A stretch of DNA of 64,000 bases from Pegea sp. RAD2-039 (Eukaryota > Chordata > Thaliacea > Salpida > Salpidae). A program made the position numbers and the translations under genes. Location: assembly GCA_034620365.1 (NCBI GenBank), contig JAQGEQ010000043.1, forward strand, positions 806,001 to 870,000, given 5' to 3'. Shown piece after piece: positions 12,336 through 55,673 of this stretch; the stretch's first letter is position 1; every line of letters starts with the position of its first letter. Under the pieces are notes generated by a model that worked only from the letters and a program-made list of their open reading frames with translations, made no database searches and was not told the DNA's origin.

Positions 12336-15300
12336 ATGAAACCCACTATAGTTAAACAGTGGGTAATATTAGCAGTTGTTTCAAACATTATTCTATATAA
12401 AGCAATATTTGCTGCATTTAATAACCAACAAACAGACTTAAATGAAAATGCAACCAAAGCAACACTCTTCAAGTCTATTGACACCAAGGATATTGAATTA
12501 CTCGGAGCAAAGACATCAGATATAAAGAGTAGTAAGAACTTTAATGATATACTTTAGTTTTTTTTTAATTTTTATTTAATGTTTTGCACGATGGTTCTTT
12601 ATGTTTGAACAATAAATGACTAAATTTTAATTCAAACACTCGAAACTAGATTTTGCGATATACTAGAAAAGAGAACTTAGTTTTAAAATCTTAAGTGGCT
12701 GAAGAAGTTAATATCAGTGTAAGATCATCGTATTATAGGCTATATTATTTTCCAATAATAACTAAAATTGTTGTCTAAATGGGCTGCAAGTAAGTACTCA
12801 TGGGAAAATGAAATCACAAATTAAGAAAAACTAAAAAGATTTTTTATGAATCAAATCTATTTTTAGTGGTGTTAGTTAAATACCTATCAAAAGGCGACAT
12901 AACTGTCTGTAACTCTTATCTGATTTTTGATCACTAATTGAAGTTTTAACTTATAAATAAGTTAGCAAACTAATACTTTATGTCATTTTAAAATACATTG
13001 ATTGTTATCCAAACCATTCAAGTCATAAAGCAGTTTTAAAAGTAACGTGATCATAATTACTATGCATACTATTGAAGATGAACCGGTTAATGAGAATAAA
13101 TGAAAGATGAATCAGCTCTTGGATTAGTTTATAATGTTTTAATTCAATTACAAAAATTTTATGGTTACCTTGTATAACAACCACGAAATATTTCTAGTAA
13201 AATTGGTGACAGCAATTTCATGTTATACACCTTACAACGTTTCTTGTAAACTAGTTAATATAAGCTTTATCAAGCCAAAAATTGCATCTTAGAAAACTTA
13301 ATTTTGATGCTTATCAATTGTTCTATGCATAAAATTTGTGTTTTGAATTAGATGAATATTCTTTTCTTTATTTATCATACAGAGCCTGTTCAATTAATTT
13401 TACTATAATAAAGGATACTTTGGTTTTAGACTTTGGTTAAGTTTCTGCAAAGTTTTTGACTTGTAAAAATTTAGTTTTATAAAGAATGAAAAAAAAGATA
13501 AACTATTTTGTAACTTGACAATAATCATTCAGGTGTTATTTATACAGCAAGACAAAAGTATAAGCTATAAACAATAAGAACTGTTATTGGTATAAGATGA
13601 TAACTAATTATACTTTATTAAATCAATTGCTTTCAGTAAGAAGTTATTAAGTAAATAAAAGTTTATTTTGACAAAATAGTTTTCAGAAAAAAATTTACCT
13701 CACTATACTAATAAGCAAGACAAATACAACCAGAAAAGATTTGTTCGTTTACAACAGTTTCTTTTTAATCTAATAACCTTTTGTGAGCTAATAAGTTTCT
13801 AATATATTATTATATTAAATCTTTTGTGTTTTTATATTATTCTTATTTTTATATAAGCTAATGAATTGAGTATACACAAAAAACTCAATTTAATAAAAAG
13901 TGTTTGAAATTATTTATACAACCAATCGAAAAAATTGATCAATTATTAAGAAAAGAAGTTCATGAGACATATCAACAGCCTATTTGAGTAGTAGTTAAGG
14001 TAAAGTTATTCTTTTACAGACAATTTTAAGAATATTTATTCATATAATTTCCCGAACTTTTAAGCTGAAGCTTCTAGTGAACAAAGAAAGTTCTTTTGGA
14101 AGATTGTTTTGATGGTTTCTTTGTTTACTGCAATTATAATTTTCTTTAAACGTTGTGAGCTCAGTTTTAATTAATATTTACACAAAAATACCTTAAAAGG
14201 CAATTATAGTTACAAAAAAGCCTTTAAATCTTATCTATTAAAGATAAAGTATAAAAAAAAGCAATTTTGCCTTTTTAGAAAGAAATTATTCTGTAAACAA
14301 GGAATACTCCGAAACCTACGAACCAGGTAAGTCTAATTAATCTTAGTAATTTCTAATTTACTTTTAGTTAAACAAAAAGTATTTTTTAAGCTTGTGGTCA
14401 CATCAAGTGAGGCTAAATTAACATAAACATCAAGTCGGTAAAAACTTTATCTATCTATTTTTTAATTTAATATTTCTTCTTAAAATATGCCTTGATTACT
14501 TTGCCCTTGAGGAGGCAACAGCAGTTGTTGAATAATAATTTTGAGCCCATGTTTACGAATTAACTCATTTCAAATCACTTTTTGAAATACTTTTGTTGTG
14601 AAATTTGTTTGAAGGATCGTCTTTTAGACAAAGAAAAATATCAAATTATATTTTATATTTATTGGCTACGATTCAGAATTATTCGATACAGTCCAATATA
14701 ATTATAATTTATATCAGAAAATAAGTTAATATACCCAAAATTTCAATTTTTTTAACGTAAAAAGTCGGTCAATTCAATCCATAGAATTTTATTCTAACCT
14801 TACGGTGGTTACAAAGTCTTACTCAAAATATGTTAAACTATTTGTTAAATGATTTTACAAAATAATAAAACGATATTTATAACATATTTTAAATTATTAT
14901 AAACTAATATATTAAAACTAATATTTCACATTTATACAGATATCATTAACTATCCTCTTGATATACTTTTCATGGTTGATCGCATTTCGGAGGTAGATTT
15001 AACTGGTACCAAATGTTTGTTGCGTAATCTAACAAACTATTTTGATATAGCCTACTATAAAAAGGTTTGTCGACAATAAATAAATTACCCTCACTTGGTT
15101 TATATCCAGCTGTTAATTTTTTGATGATGAATAACTTTAATTATCTTGAAATGCATACACTATAAGTTATTTTACGTGTTGTTTGTTGCAGTCATAACTT
15201 TAATCTTTTATTAGTTTTATTTTTTGGGTTTAAAAATTACACTTTAAGTTTGCTTTTTATTTGATTAATAATTTTTAGATAATTAGATTTAAACAAAATA

Positions 15301-18300
15301 TACTTTAGAATAACTTATAAAGTTTCTAACTTTTTATATGGTAATGCCAAGGTTGTTTAATTTTAATGTAATTGTACGAAAATGGTTTTTATTTGTTGAT
15401 GTAACACTTGGCTTGCTTTTGTAATACAACATTTTTGAAGCAATCCAATTCTAGATTTTCAAACAAATTAACATTCTTTAAAGAAAGGATATTTTTCTTA
15501 GGGTTCTAAAATTTGCAAAGCTATATGATAATCAAGCATTTAATAAGATTATATTGTGTTTTTAGGTTCGTATTGCTCTTATGAACTTAGACGGATTACC
15601 AGGAGTTGAATTTGATTTTAGACGTTATCGCGACAGCTATGGTTATCAAAGAGGTAAGCTAATTTCTATTTCCATGCTTTACCTGAAAGACCTTCTTTTT
15701 GAATGAATATTTTGTTCATACCTAAAAAGCTAAAAAAATTAGTTTTATTTATAAAACATATTTACTCAAATTTGATTTAAAATTAAATATAAAAGTAAAA
15801 TTATTTCAAAGGTACTTAAGATTATAAGCTAAAAATCTTATTACAATTTCAATAAGCTTAAACAAATTAGTAACTCTTTCTTAAAATTACTTATCAACAA
15901 CCTTTACTGTTCTTAGATCATTTTTTTTCGTAAATTTATGAAAATTGTTTCTTCACTGGTAGTTTCTAACGCTAAGCTTATGATTAGCATCAAGATATTA
16001 TTAAATTCAAAAAAGTAGTTTCAAAAGTATTAAAAGAAGAACAATTGAACAATTTAAACGCGTTTATTAAATGATAAAAACCAATGTACTGAGAACTAGC
16101 GTCAATTAGGTTTTGAGGTGTTACATAGTGAGGACATTGCATATAACCACGTGGACAAGGCTTTATTGTATGCCCATCAAGATCTTCTTAACCATTCGAA
16201 TTTGAGAGGAGCCAGAAGAAATATTGCCAAAATCGTAATCATAGTTCTTGGTTTAACCTTACAAGATCAAGCCATAGAACAAGTTAAAATCTTATCTAAC
16301 CATTCGTATCTATCCACAATTGTTGTTAGTTATGGGGATACCATTCAAGTGAGTTTTTATTTACGCTTCACTGAGTTTTATTTTAGCCTAACTGCCACGT
16401 CTTGAAACTTTAGATGCTCGCTGCTAATTATGAATTGGAAATAATTAAAGTTTCATTTAGAAATTCACTTTAAGAAAAATTGCTAAATGTTTAATGACAA
16501 ACTGCAGCTGGTTTTCAAAGTTAATTATTTTCTTTTATTTGAAATGATTCGAATTCTGAGTCGCGATGAACCATGTGTTTAATAGGAATTAAATACCACT
16601 AAGATTCTTGTAGTATGCTTTTAACTTAATTAAAATTAAAGCTAGAACCTTTTAAATACTGATCGTACAGAGGTTAGATCATTTCAAAAGTAATGCTATA
16701 ATAGTTTAGTAATAAACAAAATCAAATGAGTCATTTCTAATTTACAGAAAGAGTTGGCCAATTTAGCATCTGAGACTTTATCAGTTATATTTGTAAATGA
16801 TTCCAAAGATTTGTGCGATGTTTGGAAAAAGGTTCATCATCACATGCTTCGACAGCTACAAGGTAACTCTTTATGATTTTGAAACTTATTATTACTTACC
16901 TGATGTACTTCGTGTTATTCATACAACTTTGCTTTGAATGTCAAATAAAAAGGATTTTTTTTTCTTGTAACATAAACATTTGTTTGTTTGACATGTAGCA
17001 CTGTACTCTGTGACTCTTCAAAAGCTAGATGGCTTTAAATTAGGATTGATTGGTCAAAATGAGGCTGAACTTGGCTGGAGTAGACCCGATGATTTAGTAA
17101 CATCTTACTTCATCAAGTACGAAGCAGTTGATATGGGTGAAAACAGTTTACCAACAGAGATGGAGGTAGCTGTAGGTATGATCAGTTTGAAGTGGGCGAT
17201 CCTCATCAGTTTTGCCTTTACTTTATTTTGCTGATTATTAGGACAAGAGACTAGTGTGAGACTTCAAAACTTAGACCTTACAAGATACCAAGTTGAAATC
17301 ACAGCCTTGGGGATCAACTCTACATCTGAAACTACTAATATCGTTTTTGATATGGTATGCTCAGTTCTTGTAATGGATTTGATTGTACTGGTTGATACTT
17401 CGAAGTAAGAACCAATTTATTGTGAAATTTGTTTATGTTAGTAATATCATTATAATGAAACAACTTACGTATTCAATCAGCTATTTAGGAAAATTAGTTG
17501 CCATCAGCAAATAATGGATGGTTTATAATGTTATAAATTGCCAAAGAATCATAAATTTCAAAAAATATTTTTTTAAATGAAAATAACAAAAAAAATCAAA
17601 AATTAAATCTCATTTCAATTTCAGTCTGACTGAGTTTGATTTTGATCATTTGAAACGAAAATTTCTGCCATTATTTGTGAGTGGATTTATAGTTGATATC
17701 ACAAAAGTTAGGATTGGGGTTATATTCTACGCAAACGATGTAAGACATGTCGTTCCGTTATCAACATACTCGACAAGAGACGCTCTTCTAAGAAGAATTG
17801 ATCAATTAGAGTAAATATAACAATTATCATGCTCTTAAATAAGTTTAACTGCTAGTAGAATATATAAATTAAATTTTAATTAAGTTCTCAGCAAAGTTAA
17901 TACTTTATCATTCTTATTTTTAGCTTTTTCTTATTTTTACTTAAACAATTAAGCTTCATAATTGTTTATTACTTATATATCTTGATCGAATCATAATATG
18001 TTGAAATTTGTTGAATGTTCAAGTTTAGAAATTAACACATAGCTTTACGCTATTAGCATATTTATACCTTATATGGATTATTTTGGAATATAGAAGTTCT
18101 GAATCTGATTTGTAATTACGATTTTTATAACACTAACATCAGTTTATACTATTCATTCATAAAAAACAAAAGTTTAAATCAAATTAATTTCAAAGATAAA
18201 CTTTGATGTTCTCAATTCGTTTTATAAAATTATATAAACGGCTGACTTCAACTTTTAAGATATGAAAGAGGAATGAGGAATAGCGGAAGTGCTTTAAACT

Positions 18301-21300
18301 GGGCATTTATTTATGGATTCGAATACGCCCGAAGGTCTATTCCAAAGACTTTAATCGTCATTAGCCACGGAGCGGCAGATGATGACGTCAGTAGAGGAGC
18401 AAAAGTTAGCTTGGTTCTAAAAATGATCATACTTAATAAATAAGAAGTTTTTTAAATTTAAGTTTTAATTTTTTTCAGCTTGATATTTTTTCTAAATATT
18501 ATTCTTAATTTTAAGTATTATAGTTTTGTAGTTTGGTTTTTATTCTTTTAGACAGAAAGTAAGCTTATAAGATCGCCACTTTAAAAGCTATTGTCTGCAG
18601 AAGTTATTGATTAAACTAAATTTATCTAGTTGAAAACCCAATGAATAAGCATTTCACTACATTGCATTCAACTTTCTTGACTTTAAATCATATTTCATTA
18701 AGTAAGATATATTAAATATTGACAGTATAAAGAAACGCTTTCTTGCTTTGGGGTAAGTTAGAGCTGATTTTATCAGCTTCGTGAAAACTTTAAGTTGATC
18801 TGAGTTTAAGACAGGAATACAAATCATAAGCATCTAGTAGATAGACGATTTTGACAAACAATACACGTTCTGTACTTTTGATTGACAGTTTAGAATAGTT
18901 GTAATGCGTTGCTGACGTAAATTCAGCTTGTTAAAAGTTCTTTCTTTGGTTTTGTTTACCTCTGGGATACATCAAGACACAAATTTATTAAAGCAACAGG
19001 TTTATTGATATATATCTAATAAAAAATTATCTACGAATATTTTTCGCATTATTACTCAAGCCAGAAAGCTGAAAGCGAAATTTTGAATATTTCTATCATG
19101 ATATTAGAGAGTTTAATCTCCTCAAAATTGTTACTAACTTTAAGTTAAGCTCAATTAATTTATTGATAAAGAAAAGCTGATTAAAAGTAATTTAAGTAAT
19201 TTTAAAACTATCCTTTTTCAGAACTTCCGTAATGACGGGACTAAAGTTTATTTTGTCGGAGTTGGAAATACGATCAACCTTACAGAAGCCAGACTAATTG
19301 CATCAGAGCCATTTAAGAAATTTTCATATTTTTTAGACTCATATGAAAACTTAACATCGATTCAATTAAATTTTACTCAACAAATCTGTTCAGATGTGCT
19401 TACATACTATAAAAACTGTTAGTCTTATATTTTTAATTTTTATAATTTCTTTTTCATCTTTAATAATTTAAGATTTGATATGCTTATGTCCAGAATTTTT
19501 TCTGTAATTATAGCTTCTTATTAAGTAATGATTAAGAATTAAAGTTTTAACTAAATACAATTCTATCGTAAAATCTATTATCTCAGCTGAATAATGACAT
19601 TTTTCAAACGAATTTGTGATACTTTTTGTAAAACTTAAAATCAGTTTAACTTTATATCGACAAATCACTTTCTAGATATTAAAAATCTAAAAAATAAGAA
19701 TGTGTTCTTTTATATACTTTTAATTACAGATTAACGTTACTTTAAAATACTGCAAACTTACATCTTGCTATATATTTTATAAAACAATTCAATTTCATTG
19801 ACCTGGTAGATTATTTTTTAATCAAATTATCTACAGCTTAAATACTATCAGCATATTTTTGAAAATTATGACGCTTCTTACAATTAATTTTGTCTAATAT
19901 AAGAAATTGTTTTTCTTTCTATCTTTATTATCTTATATTAGGTTTCCGAATTCGGGCAGCAGTAACGAAATCGTTATACTTGATAAAGATCAAATCTTAC
20001 TATTGTAGACTAAAACGTTTTTTTTTTTAAATCGAATCAATTTTTTTGATTTGCTTAGATGGTATTATGCTACCACCACCGGTACAAGTGCAAGTTAGTG
20101 AAGTACGAAATACTTCTATTGAAATTCATTGGCAAAAAGCAAACTCCCTATTGGTTACTGGATATCAGATTTCAGATAACACAACAAGTAGAATCTATTC
20201 TGTTGGTCTTAATCACAAGTAAGAGTTAAAATAATTTATCATTTTATCCACAGATATTTAGAGATAAAGTTTTTTGTTTAAAACCTAATCTGCAGTAAAT
20301 CTTTAATCACAACAAACATAATCGAAATTTTTATAAAATGAGAAGAAATTTGAATGAATTATTGTACAATAACAAAACTACAACTTTAAATTTACTGATA
20401 GGGTTCATGAAAATCTATTTATTTTGCTGAAAACTAAACTAATATTGACTAAATTATAATAACTTTGATTAAATTACCCGACTTTCTATAAATTGTAGAA
20501 AGTGGTTAAGTAGAAATATTGATAATTTCAAAATCTATGCAAGAACTGTTTTAATTTATTCAAAAGATATGAATATATATATATCAGTTAGTAATTGATC
20601 TCATACTATTTCAACAAAACTAATTTTATTCATTTAATTTTATATAAAGATTTCTTACAATAATGAAAATTTTAAAAAGTATATGTAAGGCATTAGAGTT
20701 TAAACTAAGGAAGATTATTAATGTAATCTTTTGAGTGATTTCTTCAAGACATTTTGAAGATAAGTTTCTTAGATTGTTGTATTTACTCAAAAACTTCTTT
20801 AAAATTGTTTTTTTTTGTTTGGAGCAGCTCAACGAAGGTTTTTAACTTATTTCCACAATGTATCGGCTGCTAAAAGCTTTTTAGGTAAAACTACAAACTT
20901 TTCTTAGCAAAACTGTTCTAAACAGTTTTTTTCAACTCATTTCTTTCATTTAAAAAGTAAACTGATGGAGGAGAATTATCTTTTAAAGCAAAACTTCAAC
21001 TAAATCGAGCAAGAAGATATAAGCTTATAGAAGCCTTGTAAAGTGTTGTAGCAAGCTACAAGAAACTTAGAGTAGTTATTAAATTGCTTTTAGAAATACT
21101 TTTTCACTTTTTAATTTGTCATTTTCGATTTTTATTTGATTTAGATAACGACATAATATTTCTAACATAGTTTGAATACTTTGCAGCAATAGAAATGTTA
21201 CAAGCTTCCCATCAGCAATCCACATTTAACAAATATAATGTTGACAAGGCACTACATGGCGATTTAAACTTGTCAGATTTCTCGTAGAGTACTGCCAACT

Positions 21301-24300
21301 GTATAAATCTTCCACTAGAGTCTTATAACAGTTCATAAGGTCAAGTGATTATTTATCTTGATAAGTAAAACTCAAACGTAAAAACAATTAACATCTAGTA
21401 ATTGCATATTGCTTCTAAAACAGTTGACAATAAGTTTATAATTTATTCTTATTTTTAAACTAACTTATCTTAAGAGAAGCGATAGGTAGAGCTTCTTAGT
21501 TGATTTACAAGTGGAGTAATTAAGAGTAATCTTTAATACTTTTCAATCATCGAAATCAAAAATAGCCTTTGAAATATATCCAAAAGTTAAGTGGCTTTTA
21601 ATTTAAACTTGCTAAACACTAAGTTTACTTAACTTTTATGTCAATTACATTCTGTAAGCTTGTACTTGTGATTTTATATTGTTGTAATATGAATCTTGGT
21701 ATTTTAATTAAGTTTACTGAGCGAATTAGCAACGTTAAGATTGAATTTTAACTTTTATACTTGATACAGCTTATTTAAACATTTAATTAAACATTACTAC
21801 AAAGCTCTATTTACAGATTTAAAAGTTAATTAACAAGTCTTTTCTTCCTTTGTAAATTTCATAGTCTAACTAGAAGCTTCAATTTTTTCTAATACTTTCA
21901 ACATCGTGCTTTAAAACATGAAATTTCTAACTTGAAAATTTTTATGAAGTTACGATTAAAAGAAATTGAAATATAGATTCAATCTGCTAAAATTTGAAAA
22001 GTTTGAAAGATTTAATAGGAAGAAAAAGTTTTCTAACAATTGATATAGGAAAATCATATTTTCTGAAGATTATAATTTTTTCAACAGGGAGTTTACACTA
22101 TACAATCTAAATCCTGGAATTAGTTACAACATCTCAATTAAATCACAAGGACTAGGAAAAAGTAGTGAAGCTATATATGTGGCAACAACAACGGGTAACT
22201 AATCGGTATAAGATTTCACAGCTTTTCATACATTTAAAATGCCCACTAAGCTGTTTTGTTATATTTCAAACCATAATTCTCCTAAATAACTTAGTTTTTA
22301 CACTTAATTTGAATAAGAATTTTAGAACGAGTATCAGTTATGTAATTAAGAAATCTTTATTTACAACATATTGCCAAAAATTATGAAACATTTACTTTAA
22401 TGAACTCTAAATATAGTTTTCTGTATATTTACGAATGTTACAATAGTTAGAAGCACGTTGTAAGAATTAATTCTGTTAACTAACATTTTTTCACCTGAGA
22501 TTGTTTGTACAAAAACTATGATTTAATTTTCAATTGAAACTATATTCCTTTAAACAAGTAAATACAATCACCAAATTCATAATTTCAAACAGTTGAATAA
22601 ATCTAGACATTAGCAAAATATAGTAAATATTAGGAGCTTACCATTCATTCAAACTTAAGTTTTTTTACTAAAAACCACCGAAACAGCGAATTGTGGTTAA
22701 CATCATGATTGAATAGTTTTTATATACGTTGTAAGCGTTTCTCTTACTTTAAGTGTGTAAGGATTGCAAATAATCGAATTAAAAATAGTGAGTGAGTTTA
22801 TGTAAGCCATGCTGTTAACTCTATGTCAATACTCTATTGAGTACATTACATTTAAAGCTAAGGTTTTTAGTCTGTGAAGGAATAAAGCTTATAGACTTTA
22901 TTTTATCATTCATAAACTAAATTATAAAAGCAAAAATATAAACTATGATTGTAATTTCGAAAGATACAGCATGATTATAACATATAATCAACTAATATGG
23001 TCTGTTTTAAGCTTTTGGTTTAAATCTAAATTGGTTCTTGTCTTACAATAATGCATGCACTGGTAAAATCGTCAAAGAAATTTATTAATTAACCAAAAAA
23101 ATATATGATTCATAACTTTAACAACCAAAGTTTACAAAAAATAAGTATAAAATTTCTTTATTATAATTTTGAAGAAATATTGTTGGTCAAAAGAAGTATT
23201 AAGTAATAAACAGATGATATTACTAAATCGATAAATATTAAGTAAACTTCTTGTGAGCTAAAACCTACTATTAACTTAAGCTGTATGTGTTCATACAGGG
23301 ACGAATAAGAAATTCAACATAGCTATTACTAGTAAGATATACTTTATATAATAACTTTATTTAGTTTTTATGGTATGTAATCAAAAGGAATTTAACCATG
23401 AAAATGTATCCAGGTTTGCATACGTCTGTGATTTCACAAATAAAATGCTCTGTGTAAATTAACCTATGCTGTTAAATTAAGTGATGTTTGCACCACATAA
23501 CATCAATGCAAAATACTTTAGCTTTACGTCTTATCAAACTTATCTAAACATGTTTTTTACAATAAACAATATTAAGCTAAAATATGTTGCTTGTAGCAGC
23601 AATCTTATAATTTTATTACAGAAGTTCTTCCTCCATATGATCCTGTTGTTATCCAAGAAAATTTACAATCATTACAAATTAGTTGGAAAATTCCCTCAGA
23701 AGATGTAATTAAGCATGAGATTCTTCTACTTTCAGCAGAAACTGAACATTTTGAGCAAAGCTATGAAATAGGTGCATTTTCATATTAATGATGGTGTTAG
23801 ATTAAATTTGTTTATAATTTACTCGACTGAAAAACATTAAATTTTAAATTTTAGTTTACTAAGAAACTATATCTCTAAGACTTAATTACAAATAATTACT
23901 AATATTTTTCCGCAATCTCTATTTAAAACCTCTTTGAAGCAGTAAAAGATTTACTTTTGATGTAAAAAATTATTCTTTTTGAGTATCATTGTAAACAATG
24001 TAATCAGTGTTTTTCAATGCTCTTCAGATAATCAAAAATAATAAAGTATTTATCTTATACAGCAGCTTTACACTAAAATGTTACAGGTAAGGACAATCAT
24101 ATGATAACACCTGACATCATATTGCCGGCTACCAAATACAGAATTGAAATTAGAGCAATTTACAAAAATAACGTAAAAAGCGAACCCGCAACAGCTCTGT
24201 TTATAACTGGTAAATTCTCAATAACATTCAGACTATCTATTTTCGATGTTCGATAAATAAAAAGTATATAAATAATCAAAGTATAATTTTTCACTGACTT

Positions 24301-27300: not shown

Positions 27301-28127
27301 AAGTATTTGGTCGTTATAAAAGTTTAAACAAAATATCAATTTTAACTCAAAAAATAAATGTCAATTAAGTAAATTAATTCAGTAATATTTAATTTATCAA
27401 CATGGCCAATTTTTGATGTAAACTTTAAGATAGAATTTAATTTTATGTAATGAAATTTATGTAATGAAATTAAACATTTTAAATATTAAAAAAACAGAAA
27501 ATATTATGCTAAATGGTATCGACCCGAAGAAATTCCAGATCTTTATCGATTACGCTTAAAATCGAAAAGCAGATTTTTATGGATCAAAAATATTACAAGG
27601 TTAGACAAATATTTATCCCAAGTGAATTAATCATGAGAAAATATTCTAAAAAACATTCTTTGTTTATTCTAGTAAACAACTTCGATATCAAGAACTATTG
27701 AAATTTAAGTTCCAAAAAAATCTTCAATACACTTTAGTTCTTGAATCTATAGCACAAGACTTTATTAATTCGAAAAAGATTATTCAATTTCGTTCGAACG
27801 ATACTAAAGTTGAAGTATTTCAATCAAACAGTTCACTTCCAGGCAAGTTCTTCAATTGACAAATTTTTTAAATTTTCAGTTTGTAATCATTTGTATCGAA
27901 TTAGAAATGATTAGATTATTTAGATAATCAAATATTTCAATATTGATTCTTAATATGAGTTCTATTTCAAATGCTGCAAATAAATTAAATAATGTTTGTA
28001 AATTTTTTCAGAAAAATCTCGGAAAATAATTAATGCAGAAAAAAACATCCATTCTTGGAAACCCATAAAACAATTGGATGTAATATACAGCAGACTGTGG
28101 AACATTTCTAAAAGTAATTTCAGATAA
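12336..28127 (+). CDS. Secreted multi-domain VWA/FN3 matrix protein, copy A (23 exons, 1183 residues)
   Basis: Exons: 12336-12531, 14279-14326, 14940-15064, 15566-15653, 16110-16348, 16748-16862, 16999-17175, 17242-17404, 17625-17810, 18260-18404, 19222-19417, 20059-20218, 22088-22194, 23622-23771, 24087-24209, 24346-24611, 25616-25806, 25967-26120, 26494-26660, 26789-26956, 27498-27599, 27673-27842, 28012-28127. An in-frame stop just before the ATG fixes the start. A signal peptide (residues 1-28) is followed by VWA1 (about 85-270), FN3 (271-370), VWA2 (372-560), FN3 (560-648), FN3 (649-739), FN3 (740-828), VWA3 (835-1040) and a fifth FN3 (about 1040-1140). Such proteins (collagen XII/XIV and VI relatives) bind matrix partners outside the cell. 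The metal-site motifs are degenerate: DRISE at 95-99, DTSNL in VWA2, no Asp in VWA3. The intron at 27843 has a GC donor. The last exon may instead splice at 28113 into the exon at 31946, joining this gene to the next. The paralogue at 42361 confirms nearly every exon. Confidence 0.85.
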
Positions 28128-31100: not shown

Positions 31101-31521
31101 AATGCTGTGAATAATTATAAGACGGCTGACAGAAACTGAGTTAGAAAAAGATTGTAATTGGTTGTTTATATAGTTATGTCATTAAAACGTTTTCAATAAA
31201 TATGTGTGGTTTGCTGTGCACTTTCTAAATCGGTGGTAATCAAATATTCTGAATGAGTTTATTACAGGAAATAGTAGTTTTGGTAATTGTTCAAAATTGC
31301 TCGAGGTCATTTCAAAGCTTCCTGACTATTTTTGATAGTAAAAGCTAATCTGAAATAAAAAATATCATAAATCTTTTCCTTAATATTTTATACTAAATCG
31401 ATTACTGAAGTACCAAAAATACAATTTGGTTAAAACATATGAAAACATATTGTTAACTATTTGAAATTAAAGATGATTAACTAATCTTTGTATACAATTT
31501 TAGCGAACTACAAATCTATGT
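28128..31521. other. Intergenic, or a 3.8-kb intron if copy A continues into the collagen gene
   Basis: No VWA, FN3 or collagen exon is visible. A potential AATAAA lies at 28252-28257. A locally GC-richer island at about 29460-29790 contains a 70-codon minus-strand ORF (29491-29703) that I do not recognise. Confidence 0.5.
28252..28257 (+). terminator. Possible poly(A) signal after copy A
   Basis: AATAAA 125 bases after the TAA at 28125-28127. It would serve transcripts that end here rather than splicing on to 31946. Weak evidence in this base composition. Confidence 0.35.
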
Positions 31522-36272: not shown

Positions 36273-36278
36273 AATAAA
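36273..36278 (+). terminator. Poly(A) signal of the VWA/collagen gene
   Basis: AATAAA 99 bases after the TGA at 36172-36174, the expected spacing for a 3' end. Confidence 0.5.
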
Positions 36279-42200: not shown

Positions 42201-42360
42201 AAAAAAATTATAAACTAAATTTGTCTGTTAGAAGATCCTACATTACAGACTTTGAATAGTTATATGCATTCGGCTATTACATTCCAAAATTAAAGGAAAA
42301 AAGTTCAGAAGTCGAAAGAAAAGAGTTTGTTGAAAGTTTAAACCCAAGAGGTACTCCGTA
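36279..42360. other. About 6 kb without recognisable gene between the two paralogous blocks
   Basis: Almost uniformly AT-rich. Minus-strand frames at 40339-40545, 40675-40923 and 42710-42925 have biased composition and no paralogue or splice support. The only patch of different composition is about 41820-42010, upstream of the next gene, where a promoter or leader is plausible. Confidence 0.5.
41832..41856 (+). promoter_or_regulatory. Candidate 5' flank motif cluster of copy B
   Basis: AAAGGCC, CATAAGAGCA (41840-41849) and GTGATGG occur in this order within 25 bases. The same three strings occur in the same order at 11957-12013 upstream of copy A, with longer spacers. The position 521 bases before the ATG at 42361 would fit a promoter or leader. 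No TATA box is seen here. Confidence 0.25.
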
Positions 42361-45300
42361 ATGGTGTGTTTCAAAGAGATAATTTGTCGTTACTTGTTTC
42401 TGTTGTGTTTTTGCTCATTTCTTAATATTTCATCTTCTGTAAAAGAAGCCCGAAAACCTTCAACAAAACTCATCAATAAAAGGAGTTTAAATACTGAAAA
42501 TGAAAACTCAGGTGAACATTTTTTTAGTTAAATATTTATTTTTAATATTTAGGCAGCGTAGACTTGCTAGTATGTTTATATCATCTATTCGGTAGTCAAA
42601 TTAGATAATTTAATATAAATAAATTATCAAGACTTCAAAATACCTTAATCGTCGTATTATATGTATTACGCATATTAATGTAAAGTGCTTTAAATATTAC
42701 TTCATTTTTTCAATGGAATTTTTTAAGTATTTCTTTTAAACTATTAGCGGAAGCTGGTTTTGAATAAGGAATTGTTTGACGAAATTGTTTTATTAAAGTA
42801 TTTTTATCAAGTAAATTTGTTTTATGATTTTTAAAGCACATTAAAAAGTAAAAACATATCAAGTTAAGAAACGAAAAGTATTTTATTGAGAGCAGTAGTA
42901 TAATTCTATTTTTTGTGTAGAACAATAGAAGCTAGTGAAAAGTTTAGAGAACATTTCTTAACTTTTAGCTTCTCAACTTTTTCTTTACATCAAATTTGTT
43001 AAAATAGAATATCTCTAACTTTAACTTTAGCAAGCTTAAGTTGGATAACATTTAGTCATTTATAATCATACTTACTCTATTTGGATAAAGATACTTAAAT
43101 TTTTGAAAAGGTCGATTTATTTATAAAAAAACAAATTTTGATTGTACTCTTATTTTTTTTAAATAAAAATAAATATTAAAATCTACTAATTAAAAAGTAT
43201 TAAATGTAGTTTTACCAATCTTAAAAAGTTCGGGTCTTGCAAATAAAAATAACAAGGAATAGTCAAAAAAAATCTCATTTTTGCTATTAATTCTTGATAC
43301 TACTCTTGTATAATAAACAATGCATCAATATTTGGTACCATTGTAAAGAGTAAATTTATGAATAGCGAACATTGAATTGACGGCTGCGAAATACAATACT
43401 AATTAAGCGTCAGAAAAAATGTTATATAAAATTGTACAGCAAAAGAAATATTTCGTAAATTTAAATCATCAGCTTTATTTACTATCAACACAGCATTATC
43501 ATACAAATTGTATTTCATATGATTACATATATTTATACAGCTTACAACTAATATTTAAATACAATATTTTAAATTAAGTGTATTTTAAAGCAACGTTTTC
43601 TTAATACAGAAGTGATTCAGTCTCCGTTGGATATTTTATTTATAGTTGACCAATCACAGACTTCAGATGTTAACTTGGTTGGAACAAAGTGTATATTACG
43701 TAAACTAACCGAAAAACTGGATCTTGGTTTTTACAACAAGGTTTTGAGTATTATTAATTAGTCGTCTTATTTTTTTAATTTCTAAAAGAAACTAATGTTT
43801 GTGTAAGTTTTCAAAAAACAGTTTGATTACTTGAGAAACCGGTTTGTTATCTTTGACAAATTTTCATTAAATAAAATTAAAATGTGATTAATTATAATCA
43901 AATAATTTTGTATCATTTTGTTTTGTTAAAAGTTTTCAAGTACAAATCTTATTAACCTTATTTTATTAATTTGCAATAGGGTCATAAACTATTTTCAGTC
44001 AGAAATTATTCTGTAAAAAATATTGACACAAAATAAACACGTGATTAAATTGAATATAAATTAAACCTAAATTTCATTACCAAAATACCACGTTTAAATT
44101 AAAGAAAAATTATTTAGTAATAGCTTTATCAGAAAAAATACAATTTAAGGACATTTGAATTTCTATTTAGTCCTTCTAATTTCTATTTTTTTAAATATAT
44201 TCTTTGTTTTGTAGTTTTAGTAAAGCTTCAAATCTTATAAATTTTACAAAAATTTATTTTTATTCGTGGCTTGTTACCATAACAACACGTTGATACTAAC
44301 TATATTTAATTTCCTAAAACTTTTTATCAAACGTAAACTATACCGCTGCTAGTAACGCTTCAAATTTTTTATAATTTGATGACATACAAGCTTTCACAAG
44401 TTAAATCTCACACAAACAGTTGAAATGCTGAGAAGGTAAATTTCAAAACACTTTTACACACAAACAACTCAATATAGATAACGTGTCTATTCGTATACCT
44501 TGTATAATTAACAATATTTCTCGCAGGTGCGGATGGCTCTGTTAAACCCAAAAGAAGTTCCTTCCATCACTTTTTCATTTCGTCGATATTATGACGCTTA
44601 CGGCTACTTACGAGGTAAGAAGAAGCTTATCTTTCGTTGAAGCATACAAAGTATCATCAGTAGACATATGTCTTATCTCATGTCATAGATATACAAAAGA
44701 TGCTTCAAATCTTGAGAAGTGACAGATGAGAGTTATTTTAGATTACTACATGTTTAAAAAGTTCTTAATCCGATACTTAAAAAAGTATAAAAGCTATAAA
44801 TTAAACACTAATTATTCCTGCAAGTGTTAAAATATTTATCATCTTTGTGGTCATAAAAACTTTCAGTGAACTTTTAAGGTCTGCAATCAAGCTTTACACA
44901 AAGAATCTTTTCTTTCGTATATCTCTTTGCTTTATACTTAAGAAGCTTCAGGTGTTAATGCATAAAATTTACCTTTTATCGGTCACTTCACAAAGTTTTA
45001 TTCTATCACAATGTAGCTAGACTTATATTCAAGTAGAACTAAAATAAATTTGGCAGGTTCTTGGCTAACTTTAACAATGGAATATCTATGCTATATTTTA
45101 TCTTATCAATTGTTGTGCATTTATCTACTGAAAACGTTATTTTGTATATGTGTTGCTTGCTTTTATAATGGAGATATTATCGATTAATGAAAAGTTGTTT
45201 AGAAATTGTTTAGCAACAGTTATACTTGCATTTTTTATACTTACCTACATATTATTTACGAGACAAAGTTTATAGGGGATTTTTTTATAAAATCTATGAT

Positions 45301-48300
45301 TAATATTTTAAAACTAAATCTTACTCAAATAAGCAAACCGGCTTCATTTGATTTTAGTAGTAGTTTATAAAAGATAGAAAAATATATTATAGTTAGAATA
45401 ATTGTAGAATTAGTTTAAAAAAACTGAATCGTATTTTTTTTAAAGTGAAGTTTTTGAATTCACATAAAAATGATATAAAGAGAAAAACTTTCTATCCTAA
45501 GTTTTTAGCAAACGCGTTTTTTACTACAATAGTTGCAAGCTTTACTAAACACTTTGTATTTTTATCAGCTTTTGAGATGTTAGAAAACACGAAAAGTACA
45601 AGATTATACTTGGGAAGATCATTATCTAAAGCTCTTCAGAGAGTAATACAACCATCAGCTTCTTATGGAGCAAGATATAACATTGCCAAATTAATCATAG
45701 CCGTGATTGGTTCCCCGTCAATGGATAATATTTCAGAAGAAGCAATTAAGTTGATCGCAAGTCCTTATATTGCAACCGTTGCTGTTGGCTATGGAAATGC
45801 TTCAGAGGTTTTTCTATTTTATATATTTGTCAGAATGTTTTACACCACAAAAACTAACTGAAAATACGGATTAGTATTAGCAGCTTGAGGTTGTAAAACT
45901 ATTTCTAAATTTGATTTTATCTGGATAAAAAATGAGCTTAAGCATCTATAAAATATAAAATAGTTTATTGATCTCTATATAAATGCTTTTAAAGACATTT
46001 ACAAAGCTTATCAATCGTTTTAGGTTTAAAACTATTTGATACCGCTTATAGTTACAAGTGATTTGGGTAAAAAGTAGAAAGCAATAAATAAGCAACGTTG
46101 ACAAGTAATAGAAAGCTATCAGTTTATTTTGTAAAATGTGATTAAAAGTAATGACTTATCACAAGATTTATCTAAGATGTAATAAAACTAAAAGTTAGCT
46201 TACTTCAAATTAAAATGTGTTTATGTTTAACTCTTTGGAACTTCATAACAGAAAATTTTAGAAGAAATCTCAGGAGATCAATTGGGTGTGATTTATAAAC
46301 AAGGAAGTCTGTCAAATATTTGTAGATTGTGGCGTCCACTTTATAAAGTTATTCTGAAAAGAATTGATAGTAAGCTACTTACAACCTAATAGTGAATATT
46401 GCATTTAAACAAAATACTTCACCTGCTAGGTTTGTTTTCTACTCCAATAAAACCATTAAAAGAATTTCATCTTTATATAAGTGGTTCTACTAGCATTAAA
46501 ATTGGATGGAAAAGGCCAACAGACATCATAAGTTACTATATAATTAATTACTATCCTTTGAATATGGGAAACGATAACTTCACTGACACATTAAAAGTTG
46601 ATATTGGTAACTACAATTCTAAATAAAGTGCAACCAATACTGATCATTGGAATTTTTAAGAATGAAAATTTAAATTCTAAAATGTTTATTTTCAGGGCAA
46701 GAAGATACGATTAGCCTAAATAATCTGGATACTACAGTTTATAAGTTTGAAATAACTGCTTATGGTATTAAAAGGAAGTCATCCATCTTGACGGCTGTGT
46801 TTGATATGAGCTGTTCTGTGGTATCATCGGATATTTTGCTTCTGATTGATACTTCTATGTAAATATACAGTAAAGTTTACCTTATTCTAATATATTCTAT
46901 TTTTTGATTTAAGGGTAATATTTTCTTAAGGCAATTTAAAAATCATATATAAAATGTACTTATGCTGTTGAGAAAGTAATTAAAAGAATTTATGTCGATT
47001 TAGCTGGAGTAATTAGAATTAACTCTAAAGTGAATTTTTCTAATTTTATACTTGAAAGTTGATGTTGGGTTTAAATTTGCAATTAATCTAAACAATTGTT
47101 CCTTTATCAGTGTAAAAATTCAACTACTATTGGATCAGTATGTGTATGCATATTTAAATAGAATAAGTATAAGTTTTCTTAAATGACATAAAAGCAACAA
47201 TAAACAATGCTTACACAAGCAATACTAGTGTAAAGCATTTTTCTTACTATCAGCATAACTGTGGTAAACTTTAAGTTGCTATTTCAGTACTATATTCAAA
47301 CTCTAGTGTAGAAAGTTAAAGTAAACTTTATAGCCTAGGTAAACTACAAAAAAAACCTGAACTTTGCTCTAACTAAAATATGTTTATTTTTTTTATCCAA
47401 AAGTGTATATCTTATTTATAAATCAAGGATAGTTTATCTTTATTTATTCCGGCCAGTTATAAGCTTCTTTTATCGTACAATGGTTATAGATTCTTAAAGT
47501 ATTTCATCATTAATTTGTGTCTCTTTAGTGGATACTGTAAAAATTTAGATACATTTGTAAACATGTTAAAGAATTTTTAAAGATATTAAAAATGAACAAC
47601 AAAAACTTTGTTTTTGATTATCATATTAGGTATTTTTTTAAACAGTTTTTATTAAAATTTAAAAATAGGTTTAATTTACGAGCTAAGGTTCATATAAACT
47701 CTTTGCTAAAATTTAGATAGATAGCGTTTTACATAACTTTGTATCTAACAAATTTTAAATCACTACAAGAATTGTATCTCATCTCAGAGTAGATCAAGAT
47801 AGTTTTACAAGACTAAAAGAAGGGTTCCTCAAATCCTTTGTCCAAAGCTTTCTGATTGATCAAACAAAAACACGCATAGGTATCATACTTTATGCAAATG
47901 AGTCAAGATATGTGTCTCCGCTTTCAACTTATACTGATACAGATGATATTTTATGGCGATTAAATCACATCTAGTAAGCTCTTAATCAATTGTTTATACT
48001 CAATAGATAAGTTAACTTGAGGAATTATTTTTTAAATATATTTCGAGCTAAAGTTAATTACAACTAATGTAGTTAAAAATATTTACTTTTTATTTTAATA
48101 AGCCTCTATAAATCATTCTGCTTTTTGTAACATTTATTCATGATTGGTTCAACAACAACAAGTTTTACAGTTTTGAAAATGGTCTACGAAATACCGGAGT
48201 TGCTTTAAACTTTGCATACTTTCATGGTTTTGAATATGTCAGAAGAGCAGTTTTTAAAGCCTTAGTCATAGTCACTGATGGAATGTCTGAAGATGATTTG

Positions 48301-51300
48301 ATGAAACCTCTTCAGGTGTGTTTCTTTTTAGCTTTATAGAAAATATCACCAAATGTAACCTTCTAAAATAAGTCTTACAACAAAAACTGTGAATTGAAAA
48401 TGAATAAAATATTTTAATGTAAATATTTCTATAAGATGTTACATAAAGTATTTGATATTTTAAGAGAATATTTTCAGCCACTTTGACAAAACAAAACCTT
48501 GTCAGAAGTTTTAGTCTTGTTTAATCTTACAATTATTTGGATTATAAGCATTTTTTAACTGGTTATTATGACCAAAAAGTATAAAATAATTCTTAATGAC
48601 CTATTGATGACTAAGAAGGTCCCCTGTGTAATGATACACTGCATTGACATTTCAGTTTCAGCTTTTAAGAAAATTACCCAACCTTTAAGACACTAATTAT
48701 AGGTACAAACAGTTGCTGAATAAGATTCTATGTATTTAGAAAATATTTTAAAAAGCTATTCTAAATTTATCACAATGTAGAAGATCTCTATTGTTATATG
48801 GCAATATTAAACGGCTTCTTGTACCATTCAAATTGAATTATGATTCTAAAACCCTATAATCTTTAAGCAAACATTATCAGCTGATTGAAGCTAAATCTTG
48901 AATATGAAAATTACAGAAGCTAAAAAATGATCAAACATTAATTGTTCAAATCAACATCAATAGACATGAGAAGAGTAATGATCAGTGGACCTTACACCAA
49001 TTTGGTGATGAAATTTATTCAGTAACTTCATATGAGGAATTAAATTCAATTACTCTCACTTTAACAACAACTATCTGTAAAAAAGGCATGGACTATTATC
49101 AAGCAGGTACAGTTTAAGCAAACTTTTTTATACACTGTTTAACCTGTGAATCTCAAAATAATTAAGAAATATAAAAATAATAACTCCAAACTAAAACATA
49201 TATATATTGATAAAAATAATTGAAAAACATTTAATAATGGATTTTTTAACTTTTCTTAGCTAATCCACAACTTCTACCTCCACGTAATTTGATGATTAAC
49301 GATATTCGTAACACCTCTTTGGAAGTGAGCTGGGAAATAGATGAGTCCGATTTAATAACTGGTTTTGAAATTATAGTAATTAATACCGGCCAAGCATACA
49401 GCGTAGGAAAGCATCGTCGGTAATTCTATCTTCTAATTTTTTTTTCTAAAATGAATAAACAAAGCAGTTTTGCACTTATCAAATAAAATCTTTAATTGAA
49501 ACTATTTGTAGACATTTGGTACTATACAATCTACTACCTGGTCACTTCTACAATATATCTGTCAGTACAAAAGGACTGGGAATCGATAGCACCAGAATTG
49601 AAATTAGCGCAACAACTGGTATATAAATCGGTATTGAATTTTGTAAACATTTTCATTTCGAGTATGTCAAATGAAAACCACAAATAGTTTTATAGATAAA
49701 ATCAATAAGTAAATCTAAGTTAGAGAATTATCGATGACAAATCGAAAACTAGTTTTTATAAATCTAAAATTAAAAAGTTTATTCTGATTTGTTGATAAAG
49801 ATGTATTTCTGTTGTTTGTGACTAGTGTAAAGTCTTAAGATTTCTGATGAACAATTTTCGGTAATATTAATTTGTTGCAGCTAAAAACTGCAATTGTTTC
49901 TGTTAGTTATATTTGTATAAAAGTTCTCTTTCTCTAAGCTTTATTTTTGCTTTTAAATTATTTTTTTAATGAAGTTATCGACTTCTCTAATAACTTAAGT
50001 GATATTTATTACAATTAGATGAGTATTTACTGTGCTCATTTTACAGTAAAAGTTCTTACGATCAGCCTAAGAATTTCTTACAAAATGATGAATCTGAATA
50101 TAAAACTAACCATCTTTCAAATTATGTTTCATAACACAAAGTTTGTTTATGACTTCTTTATCTATCAGCTTTAAAGAAATATCAAAAAATGTTTTGAAAG
50201 CAAATTATTAGAATACACTTAAGAATGAGATATGTAAAGTATATAAAATATTTAAAGAACAGTTGGTTGTAAATGTTAATGATATGCAGCGTCTACAACA
50301 ATATTCTAGATAATGTGTCATAGAAATTAAATGTAAGAATTATTGTTTTTAAACTCTTGCTTTTTAAATGTAATGCATATAGTATGCAATATAATGATGA
50401 GTTTACCATAAAATGGTTGAGTATGCTCTAAATTTTAATCAACTCCAAAACAAACATAAATAACCATAAGTATTTCTTCAATTGCAATCAAAAATATCAT
50501 TAATTCGCTAAAGATTACTAATAACTTTTTTTAATATTATTTTTTGGAAAGATCTAAACAACCTTGGCTGTATCTGACAAATTATTTATTACTGAAGCTT
50601 GTAACCTACCAATTGCAGGATAATAAAACGACTTTTCTAAGTACATAACTGGCCTAATTTTGCATGAAACATCTAAATATACTCTTGTGATTAAAAATTG
50701 TTTTTGCTGCAGATATTTTACCACCAACTCTAAATAGAGCAATTAAACTCAATCAATCTAAGATTGAAATTAGTTGGAAGTATTCTTCAAATGATTTTGT
50801 TCATTTTCAACTGAAAATATTTGAAAGAACAACAAATGAATTAATAGAATCTTATCTTACAAGTAAATATTTGCTTTGTTTATCATATCTTATTAATAAA
50901 TCTTAGAATAGCTTTTATAACTATACACCATTTAATTTGTAAAAGATGGAACAAATAAAAAGTACATATCTGAAAAAACTGTACCAGGAACAGAATATGA
51001 AATTTGTGTTACTGTAATATACATTGATGGTGTTAGAAGTTCATCTAAGAGTTTGTTTATAACTACAGGTATTGATTTAAATGTATTTTTATTAAAAATG
51101 TGTGCTTCTTTAGAAGCCAATAGATTTATTCTGAAATTATTTAAAAATATGTTTTAAACACTTAGATTTACCAGTACCCAATCAATTTAAAGTTGACAAA
51201 ATATTTGAAACTCAAGTAAGAGTTAGTTGGAAGAAGTTAATGTTTCAACGACATGATACAAGCAAAAATCTTGCTTATCAAGTACAGGTTACAGACAATG

Positions 51301-54300
51301 TAGGAAATATACTTGCACAAAAAATAATTTCTAATAATACTTTGAGTTCGCATTGCTGGATAAAAAACTTAGCTCCTGGGCGAGAGCTAAATGCTACAAT
51401 ACAGGTTAATGAAAAGCAAAGTTGAAGAAGTAATTGAAACTGATACTAATATTTCTAAATGCTTCTTAAAAAAATATTCTCCTCATCATTTTATATTAAA
51501 CTTTAAATTTATAAATCTATAGTAAAATGTATAGCTGTAAAATACACAAGAGATAATACCTTAAATAATCATAATTTTATATGATAAACTAATTTTACCA
51601 GAAGAACCTGTACATGTAACACAGTAGGAAGATATTTATCGTTTATTTTCTAGGCTCATTTAGGTTCAGTTGAAAGTAAAGTTTACAAAATCAAATTTCA
51701 AACACGTCAAGTACAGTTGAGTCTTGATATTGCTATATTTGTCGAAATTTCTCCGTCATTAAGAGATTCTGAAGTTATAATGACTCTTGATTTCCTTGAG
51801 TTGATAGTAAATTCGTTTGATCATGACACCAAAGGATATACGAAGTAAGTAAATCACTAAAAAAACAAATTAACTTAATGCAACATTTACTGATTTTGTG
51901 AGCAATTTTTTACTTTAAATTTGAACTTGAGAAAGAATAATACATTTTAATAAATAAAAATCAAATTTAGTTTTAATGTACGTTTAAAAATTTTTATTAA
52001 TCAGTTTTGCATTGGTTCAATTGACAAACCAGCCAATAGAAATCATCTCTTTCAAAAGCTCATTAAATCGAAACTCAGTGGTTTCAAAACTTCGTGAAAT
52101 GATGCCACTAAACGGAGCATCAGTCCTGAAAGACGATCAGTTTGAACAGATTGTTCTGGTAATTTTTATCTGATACAAAATCGGTTTATACTTGAAACAT
52201 TAATCGATCAACTTTCTTGTGGGATATATACGTTGATATCAATCACCAATTGACGATGCCTTTTTTAATAGGACACATTTAAATACTCTCGCAGTGGAGT
52301 TCCAAGGATTATGATCTTGCTTAATACTAATCAACATTTTTCAAACCTAATGCCTGAATCTGAAGATCATTTTGCAAAAATCGGAATCACTTCAATTGTC
52401 CTTCAAATGTCTGTTCAAGCTGAAGTTCCATATTCAAAGTGATTTCCGATTTGTTAAGCGACAAATTATCAACAAATATTTTGTATATAGCAATAAGGCA
52501 AACTTTTATCAATTTCTTGAAATAATTTATTTTAATTTGCTTCAGTCATTCAATAATGCATCGATATGTGTTGGATACATTCGAACAACTTCGACTGGTT
52601 GTCAACTACGTCACTATAGATGCTATTCGCGCATATGAATATTTGCTAAAAGAAGTCAATCGTGAAAAGGCATTGCTACCTCACTCTTTAGCTGTTTTTC
52701 AAGATTCAGCAAAGTACAAATTTCAAAAAAAATTATTTTAAAAATGAAAACAAAAAATGATATCATTTTGAATTTGTATTCATCTATAGAAACAATATTG
52801 CTGAATGGTGGGCACCTATTGAATGGCCACATTACTATCAAATACAATTGAATGACGAAAATAGTGTTGTATGGAGAAAAAACATAACGGTTCGGTAATA
52901 TAATCTTTAAAATTGCTAATTTTCTAATTTTAAATCAGCTTCTAATTGAATTATCTTTGTGTTTAGCAGAAGAATTCACTACAGGCTACGTTTGATTGAA
53001 TCACTCAAACCTAACACTCTGTACAATTTAATTTTGAAAGCCTATTCTAAAGATAATTTTAGCGCTTGCTTAGCTGTGAATTTTAAAACTGACTTCAACA
53101 GAAAAATGTTGACAATTAAAAGAAGTTTGCCAATTAGTAAGTTTCATCTGTAATTTACATGATGTTGTTTTAAAGCTTCTGACTTTTATGTTAATGCTAG
53201 TATTTTCTAACCAAAGTACTTTCGGTTTATTGGCAAAATTTTCTAGTGAACTTTTGGAAAAGTGAAAAATCGACATTTCTAACAAATGGTCAATGTTGTT
53301 CAAGAAAAAATGCTAATCATCAAAGCTTAAGGCCGAGAGATATTCGCTACCTTTCAACAGTTTCCAAAAGTAATTAATCTTAATTGCAAAATCTAAATCT
53401 TTGAAATTTAAATCATGTCTACGATTTTTACGAAAAAAAATAGTTTTATAGAAGCTTCGAATCTTTCATTAAGTTTTCTATATTTTTAGTTAGTAAACAA
53501 TACTTTTGAATTCTAGAAGCAGGTTCTTGTGTGATTGCAGGAAGCAATTTACTCTTCTTGATCGATGACTCTAATCTCACAGCAGCAGAAGATTTTGTTG
53601 GAATCAAGTCAGAGCTGAAGAAATTAGTGAACTCATTAAGAATTGAACCTGTTGAAAAGTAAAACTAAAGTTGATTTGTAAAACAAGTCATCTTCTAACA
53701 TTAATGTTTAAAATTAAAAAGTCAACTAAATAATTTGATACTTAATTAGAAATTATATAGATTAAGCAACAATTAAATTAAAACAGACTGAAATTGGTAA
53801 ATATTTCTTTTCATATGTTGTTTAGTTGGTTTAGTAAACTTTAAAAATCCAACTAAGACGATTTACTTTTATTAATTTGTTTCTTAAACATTTTGTTGAT
53901 CCAGAACTGTCGAAGCTAAAAAAAGGCAGCTTTCCAGAAGAAGAACATTAAATAGAACTCCTGAACTGCTAGTCTACGGAGTTGGATTGTCTGTTATACA
54001 GTTTTCAGATCAACCAAAAGTTCATCTGCCTCTGTTGACTCGTATGTCTACAAAACAAATCTTTCAAAGTATCGATACACTGAAGCAACGAGGTACATTA
54101 AACATTCAAATATTTGAAGAAGCAAATTATAAAGTTAAATTCTAAAATTAACTTGATGTAGGTGGAAGCTCTTGTCTTAACAGAGCATTGAGGTTTATTG
54201 AAAACAACATTTGGAAACCGAAAAAAACATTTACAAGAGAAGTTCTTATACTGATTAGCAGTTCAAAATATAAAAGAAGAACTTTAAAGCGGATGGAAAA

Positions 54301-55673
54301 AATAAAGAAAACGGGTAAATTATCTTCTTTGAATTCTTTTTAAAAAGGATTCAATATTTAAGTTTATATAGTAAACCCAAAAATGTTGAAAATTACAATG
54401 AAGCCTAGAGAAAATTGGAAAATATTGTTTTAGGTGTTCGTCTTATCACAGCTGAGTTGATCAAAATTCAAACGAAAAAGACACATCACTCAAATTCAGC
54501 AAGACTCTTTAAATATAGCTTTAAACTACAAAATAGTAGTATCTTTGATCATCAAGATATTTTCAAGACAGTTAAAGATGCAATTTGTCAGTCAACAGTG
54601 ATAACAAATAAAAGTGAGTATGAACTTTAAACTGTTTACGAAAACTTGACTTTCTAATTTTAAGTCTTCGTTTTTAACATTGCTTAATACTATAAGTTAG
54701 CTGTTTAAACAATGCTTATGTATTCATTTTTTGATGAAACAGAAGTTAAAAGGAAATCAAAAAGTTCAAAAAACAATTTATCTTCTTCACCTAGTAATTG
54801 TACAAACTGCGTACAAGAGTCTGAAAAATTCCAAAAGACGTCTGGCAGTATGGTTTGTAGTTTGATCACTAGAATTTGTAATTACATATTACTAAAAAGC
54901 ATTAAATAGAATAAAATTTACTTGATACTTTCAAATAGATATTTTTATATATTCATTATTATGCTCTAGAATTGGTTTGCCTAGGATAAATGTTTTAACT
55001 GAAAACTGTTCAACTAACTTTGTATTTATTTACTTTATTTAAATTTAATTTTCTTTAATTATTTTACTAATATAAAGTCAGAAAAACAAGTCATAAAACT
55101 AACTATATCTGTGGGTTTAAAATAAAACGTTTTACAAAGCCGAACAATTTTTCGTTTTAAGGTCTGTTCGTATACATCTAAATGTAATTTTAATAACATT
55201 TTATACCTTGAAATTTCTATTTTTGTATGATCATTTTTCAAAATAGTATTTTAATTATAAATGAAGGAATTTAGTTTTTAATATAAAGTCTTCTCTTAAA
55301 ATTTTACAAAAGTAATAGTAAATACTAATAATTATATATTCTTTTAAATGATGAATTCAGTTTTTTAATTTGTTTTGATTGTAAGCTAACATCTAAAAAA
55401 ATGAAGTAAACAAAATAGTTTTGAATTTTTTTTTAATGTTTCATTCTTTAGGAAGTAATTTTAATTAAAAAATTCTGTAAACTTTTTTATAATGTTTATT
55501 AAAAAATATTAGAATAATTTAGAGAAAGAAATATTTATAAGAAAACTGAAATAATTAGCCAGTAATCAACTTTTAGCATTATAGACTTATCTTAATTTTT
55601 TAATTATTTTTTTTTATTTTAGACTGCCTTAGAAACAACAAAACTGACATCAAATAATCACAACGTCAAATAA
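42361..55673 (+). CDS. Secreted multi-domain VWA/FN3 matrix protein, copy B, without collagen helix (28 exons, 1421 residues)
   Basis: Exons: 42361-42511, 43610-43740, 44527-44614, 45569-45807, 46252-46369, 46430-46606, 46696-46858, 47788-47973, 48171-48315, 48917-49106, 49260-49419, 49512-49618, 50713-50862, 50946-51068, 51166-51404, 51654-51844, 52005-52158, 52272-52438, 52546-52713, 52790-52894, 52970-53136, 53247-53369, 53517-53658, 53905-54092, 54162-54314, 54434-54613, 54743-54852, 55623-55673. A signal peptide (1-28) precedes VWA1 (about 51-242, motif DQSQT at 64-68), FN3, VWA2 (344-529, DTSIV, with a TDG motif), FN3, FN3, FN3, VWA3 (796-1005), FN3 (about 1005-1106), a basic linker and VWA4 (1150-1370, DDSNL). 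It is the tandem paralogue of 12336-36174. The tail (1370-1421) has no Gly-X-Y. If exon 22 read through its donor, the protein would stop at 53377 (1149 residues), as copy A can, but VWA4 would then lack a start. The acceptor before 52970 is tandem (tagcag), so one residue may vary. Confidence 0.83.
42361..55673 (+). repeat. Tandem duplication block, second copy
   Basis: About 13.3 kb against 23.8 kb for the first block; the difference is shorter introns, loss of the collagen exons and absence of a separate start for the last VWA part. Introns are not alignable by eye, so the duplication is old. Confidence 0.85.

Follow-up and report, generated by a model that had tools for sequence, protein, structure and literature searches.

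A conserved second signal-peptide exon points to probable nested long and short products in an old family of VWA/FN3 genes of the salp Pegea

Two adjacent gene blocks of the salp Pegea sp. RAD2-039, here called A and B, belong to a group of at least six old paralogues (A to F) of a predicted secreted extracellular-matrix gene, and in five of these copies a homologous signal-peptide exon, SP2, lies in the intron before the last VWA domain. We propose, with a probability of about 0.6, that each of these five loci has two starts and would encode two proteins that end alike, a long one with VWA and FN3 domains and a short one with a single VWA domain and the tail. The long form would begin at the first signal peptide (SP1) and follow the order SP-VWA-FN3-VWA-FN3x3-VWA-FN3-VWA-tail. 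The short form would use SP2 as an alternative first exon and read SP2-motif-VWA4-tail, so that three VWA and five FN3 domains are left out. The case for an alternative start is usually made from the transcripts of a single gene; in this case a second start may be visible from the genome alone, because five synonymously saturated paralogues keep the exon with its motif, phase and donor, and a sixth is without it.

The window analysed here is a stretch of 64,000 nucleotides (positions 806001-870000 of contig C30) from an assembly of 105.7 Mb in 387 contigs. Its GC content is 23-31% along its length, and spliceosomal introns interrupt its genes, which encode animal matrix domains. Comparison of stop-to-stop open reading frames (ORFs) of the window against one another gave colinear matches between approximately 14.9-32.8 kb and 43.6-54.3 kb, the best with an E-value of around 1e-20 at a set database size. 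Exon boundaries were placed by trying AG/GT pairs around each ORF match, with a good GC donor also allowed. Since this search demands AG and GT ends and its global alignment scoring favours equal lengths, the boundaries are not independent proof of homology; the weight therefore falls on the way in which single ORFs match colinearly at the protein level, on the equal phases and on the open frames. The resulting models are free of stops, with 32 exons and 1502 codons for A and 26 exons and 1365 codons for B (Table 1). Pfam finds four VWA stretches in each model, four fn3 stretches in A and five in B, and Collagen in A only.

The two blocks have neighbours of other kinds. Upstream of A, two ORFs at 3988-4530 on the plus strand look FN3-like by eye, with no Pfam match at E-values up to 0.01 and no match to A or B. 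Beyond B lie a multi-exon short-chain dehydrogenase gene on the plus strand (57718-59328; Pfam adh_short, E 3.3e-33 for a fragment joined by eye) and a kinesin gene on the minus strand (60635-63697; Pfam Kinesin, E 3.4e-14 on one exon), which is adjoined by coiled-coil-like exons.

Table 1. Parts of genes A and B in the window.
Feature	Position	Strand	Remarks
A exon 1, signal peptide 1 (SP1)	12336..12531	+	phase-1 donor GTAAGA
A exon 2, short linker	14279..14326	+	
A exons 3-6, VWA1	14940..16862 (14940-15064, 15566-15653, 16110-16348, 16748-16862)	+	Pfam VWA
A exons 7-8, FN3-1 and start of VWA2	16999..17404	+	
A exons 9-11, VWA2	17625..19417 (17625-17810, 18260-18404, 19222-19417)	+	
A exons 12-16, FN3-2 to FN3-4	20059..24611 (20059-20218, 22088-22194, 23622-23771, 24087-24209, 24346-24611)	+	
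A exons 17-20, end of FN3-4 and VWA3	25616..26956 (25616-25806, 25967-26120, 26494-26660, 26789-26956)	+	
A exons 21-22, FN3-5	27498..27842 (27498-27599, 27673-27842)	+	exon 22 GC donor CAG/GCAAGT at 27843-27848
A second signal-peptide exon (SP2)	31522..31801	+	ATG to phase-1 GTAAGT donor; motif DAVVTEVLNSELFDVPLEEM; homologues in C, D, E, F
A exons 23-26, VWA4	31946..33468 (31946-32087, 32224-32405, 32646-32801, 33295-33468)	+	in-phase join from exon 22 and from SP2
A exons 27-29, linker	33541..33957 (33541-33599, 33719-33763, 33850-33957)	+	
A exons 30-32, Gly-X-Y	34238..34838 (34238-34282, 34370-34432, 34743-34838)	+	Pfam Collagen
A tentative last exon	36029..36174	+	stop TGA 36172-36174; by eye only
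B exon 1, SP1	42361..42511	+	donor GTGAAC
B exons 2-5, VWA1	43610..46369	+	
B exons 6-10, FN3-1 and VWA2	46430..49106	+	
B exons 11-15, FN3-2 to FN3-4	49260..51404	+	
B exons 16-19, end of FN3-4 and VWA3	51654..52713	+	
B exons 20-21, FN3-5	52790..53136 (52790-52894, 52967-53136)	+	donor GTAAGT
B intron at SP2 position	53137..53516, 380 nt	+	no SP2-like exon
B exons 22-25, VWA4	53517..54613	+	
B tail	54743..55673 (exon 54743-54852, tentative last exon 55623-55673, TAA)	+	no Gly-X-Y found

A sequence-only reading of this DNA had proposed that A and B are homologous, old blocks in which exon structure was kept as sequence diverged, and the alignment of the two models bears this out. Across 24 matched exons the phases agree in every case and the lengths in 16 (88, 239, 177, 163, 186, 145, 160, 107, 150, 123, 191, 154, 167, 168, 170 and 142 nt), whereas 10,000 shuffles of exon order gave 0.71 equal lengths on average and never more than 5. 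The fifteen equal lengths listed in that reading were all recovered in both blocks with equal phases, and the 170 nt exon is a sixteenth. Protein identity is 36.0% over 1247 aligned residues, ranging from 21 to 56% per exon; the one exon pair sampled earlier (17625-17810 against 47788-47973), then put at about 40-45%, comes to 46%. The alternative that matched exons have no excess similarity is contradicted by the excess colinear similarity in this alignment. No alignment of corresponding introns was obtained with blastn, in agreement with the earlier reading; the sole match is weak (E 3e-4) and joins introns that do not correspond. No convincing counterpart of A exon 2 was found in B, where 42553-43560 was examined. 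Synonymous sites are saturated (Jukes-Cantor dS 2.08), with 45 of 123 four-fold sites identical (0.37) against 0.337 expected from composition. The earlier reading had called for per-exon identities, the range of which is given above, and for the dN/dS ratio, which was computed but is unusable because of this saturation and was set aside. The claim of a common domain order holds through VWA4 and fails at the end of the genes, where A has Gly-X-Y exons and none was found in B.

When B was used as a query against the genome, more exon series came to light on the minus strand of contig C3. With A and B exons as queries, two copies there, C (3608-3628 kb) and D (3642-3672 kb), have all 24 exons in order, and 15 of the 24 lengths are equal in all four of A to D; for C and D, the phases were fixed in advance in this search. 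Two more copies on this contig were read in part, exons 19-26 of E and exons 23-26 of F; in F, the 4 kb read upstream did not yield an exon 22. Within 50 kb either side of the window, no further copy was found with A and B as queries at E-values up to 1. A PF00092 search of the assembly, with at least 130 matches, also showed dense VWA arrays elsewhere (C58:265309-414188 and C262:1510237-1559912), some with a spacing of about 5 kb.

Consideration of the kinship of these copies makes it improbable that one old tandem event gave A and B and nothing further, which is how the pair had been read before. The colinear A and B exons with their equal lengths and phases are what such a duplication predicts; however, there are at least four more copies on C3, and of the six pairs among A to D the lowest identity is that of A and B (AB 35.1%, AC 38.0%, AD 36.9%, BC 38.9%, BD 37.8%, CD 40.7%). 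In a four-taxon approximately unbiased (AU) test the grouping of A with C and B with D is preferred (0.72), followed by A with D and B with C (0.37), and the grouping of A with B and C with D survives at 0.13. A tree of VWA4 from six copies places A with B at a support of 46, in keeping with a simple duplication, whereas in a tree of exons 19-26 from five copies B, C and D form a group separate from A and E (support 87). The two trees disagree, and together with the AU test they neither establish nor dismiss a simple A-B duplication; the sisterhood of A and B stands unsupported though not rejected. With their frozen exon lengths, the four old copies are well suited to studies of what constrains the length of exons.

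The evidence for a second start begins with an ORF at 31504-31812 in A, overlooked in the sequence-only reading, which has a signal-peptide-like start and a phase-1 GTAAGT donor that fits VWA4 exon 23. Homologous exons occupy the intron before the last VWA in C, D, E and F but not in B. In all five copies the donor is a phase-1 GTAAGT fitting exon 23, with E and F having been searched for GTAAG. To the exclusion of the first 28 residues, the similarity among SP2 exons exceeds that of all 500 shuffles in each of the ten pairs (z 6.8-17.6), and the scores of the B intron against SP2 (16-30) fall inside the shuffle range. The exons share an acidic motif, D.VVTE(V/I)...P..(E/D)(M/L), which would lie at the N-terminal end of the short form. 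In a 20-codon block around VVTE, which was picked for its conservation, the differences at codon positions 1, 2 and 3 amount to 0.35, 0.17 and 0.59, respectively, and pS is higher than pN in every one of the ten pairs. In A, C and D, no other of the 23 core introns is as long as the one that holds SP2 (4103, 3222 and 6725 nt, respectively), and the intron at this position in B has only 380 nt. No other exon of this kind was found when both strands of the window were scanned. SP2 may have been lost in B or gained in an ancestor of the other five, the trees being unrooted. A stricter scan also found SP1-like first exons upstream in C and D; these are candidates only, because the same scan missed the SP1 of B, the donor of which (GTGAAC) is weak, and gave one extra candidate in A.

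An SP2 exon with a strong donor in five loci would also be expected if A, C, D, E and F were each two adjacent genes, the upstream one (SP-VWA-FN3-VWA-FN3x3-VWA-FN3) ending at exon 22 and the downstream one consisting of SP2, VWA and tail, with the two fused in B or a once-single gene split in the others. The length of intron 22, 3.2-6.7 kb in A, C and D, is in keeping with this arrangement, as are the donors of exon 22, which are weak or odd in A, C and E. Exon 22 ends at nucleotide 170 in A to D, where it is followed by GCAAGT in A, GTAAGT in B, GTTGAA in C, which is weak, and GTATCA in D; E has no GT at this nucleotide, its next candidate donor being GTAGAC at nucleotide 191. The donor of A is the sole GC among 96 core exon ends, in a search that admitted GT or three strong GC forms. 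For comparison, GC donors make up about 0.8% of the junctions in human and mouse protein-coding genes (PMC7242645). Moreover, the frame past exon 22 stops within one to seven codons in A, B, C and D (at 27859 in A), and for this reason exon 22 could be terminal. The read-through stop is, however, uninformative, because B stops within five codons despite its GTAAGT donor. A last exon has no need of a donor, yet GT stands exactly at nucleotide 170 in B, C and D and CAG/GCAAGT in A, and the phases of exons 22 and 23 match. The position of a donor at the identical nucleotide in three or four copies therefore argues that exon 22 is spliced on, favouring one locus. We consider two adjacent genes to be unlikely, although the main competitor, and favour a single locus with two starts.

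A further arrangement, in which SP2 is an internal cassette exon that adds a hydrophobic segment within the long protein, is hardly credible. In its favour, T-rich AG sites stand, by eye, 14-18 nt before the ATG in A (31504-31521), C and D; these could otherwise belong to a 5' UTR or be a spliced-leader acceptor. Also by eye, however, C is the sole copy in which phase-1 entry from exon 22 preserves the reading frame of SP2; such entry runs into a stop in A and D and leads to a different frame in E.

For a single locus with two starts, the nature of the shared end is of interest. In four copies, A, C, D and F, VWA4 is succeeded by Gly-X-Y exons; in A the repeats were read at 34238-34282, 34370-34432 and 34743-34778. 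In B, none was found in the 3.3 kb past VWA4, down to two repeats, with the exception of a chance six residues at the neighbouring gene. E (C3:3722001-3737400) retains SP2, with no Gly-X-Y found past VWA4 in the stretch read, and the short form is thus not tied to a collagen tail. In the partial tail models, cysteines stand after the Gly-X-Y stretch, in GKPC (C), GICPSC (D) and GSGCADC (F), with two residues between them in D and F. On this account B would make the long, non-collagen form only.

The proposed mechanism includes four inferred steps: splicing of exon 22 to exon 23, a promoter before SP2, secretion and trimerisation. The long form would be a secreted rod of four VWA heads and five FN3 spacers. 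Its VWA domains mostly have an incomplete integrin-type MIDAS (DxSxS): VWA3 has E for D in A to D, the VWA1 motif is DxSxT in B and C, and VWA4 has DxSxS only in A (DGSNS) and F (DSSDS) of the six copies. Mainly metal-independent contacts are therefore expected. The Gly-X-Y tails of A, C, D and F could form a collagen triple helix, and as the C-terminus would be common to long and short chains these could trimerise together, giving assemblies with zero to three long arms. The ratio of the two promoters would then set the number of VWA/FN3 arms per assembly.

Taken together, these observations lead us to a broader and more tentative reading, to which we give slightly less than even odds: a lineage-specific VWA/FN3/collagen-tail family may have kept a nested long and short design through an ancient radiation, with an acidic motif confined to the short form and with promoter choice tuning the valency of mixed assemblies, and B, which is without the collagen tail, may have lost or never gained the second start. 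If this is true, the copies form a natural series (two starts and collagen; two starts and no collagen; one start and no collagen) in which to test the role of the short form.

Our literature search found no published account of this VWA/FN3/collagen-tail architecture, although parts of it resemble known systems. Collagen XII has the order VWA-FN3-VWA-FN3n-VWA-FN3n-VWA-collagen, and A shares with it and with the FACIT collagens several VWA domains with FN3 between them and a C-terminal collagen stretch, the last of which B does not share. Compared with collagen XII, A and B differ in their FN3 numbers, with a single FN3 ahead of VWA2, three ahead of VWA3 and again a single one ahead of VWA4, and the Gly-X-Y stretch, in contrast to that of FACITs, is short in A and was not found in B. 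In FACIT collagens the last collagen stretch closes with a pair of cysteines spaced four residues apart. We do not file A and B as FACITs, because Pfam finds no TSPN domain in either model at E-values up to 1, the model of A being taken to exon 32. The best match of the A/B profile to a solved structure is collagen VI alpha 3 (9han; E 7.2e-64 over six stretches), by way of the repeated VWA. In collagen VI, VWA domains flank the collagen part on both sides, whereas no VWA was found after the Gly-X-Y exons of A, and A and B are not collagen VI. A further structure match is the mussel proximal thread matrix protein 1 (4cn8; E 2.4e-15), also a secreted invertebrate tandem-VWA protein; the genes described here have FN3 and collagen parts in addition, and we do not claim orthology.

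The arrangement of starts has parallels among the two-promoter collagen genes, one of which is COL9A1. In the salp family, a conserved second signal-peptide first exon with an in-phase join to the shared exons was found in five of six loci. The closest documented precedent is COL18A1, where one gene uses two promoters to give isoforms that differ in their signal peptides (PMC2671584). The domain content differs in the salp family, which nevertheless would have in common with COL18A1 a single gene with two promoters, different signal peptides and a shared C-terminus, here read from sequence.
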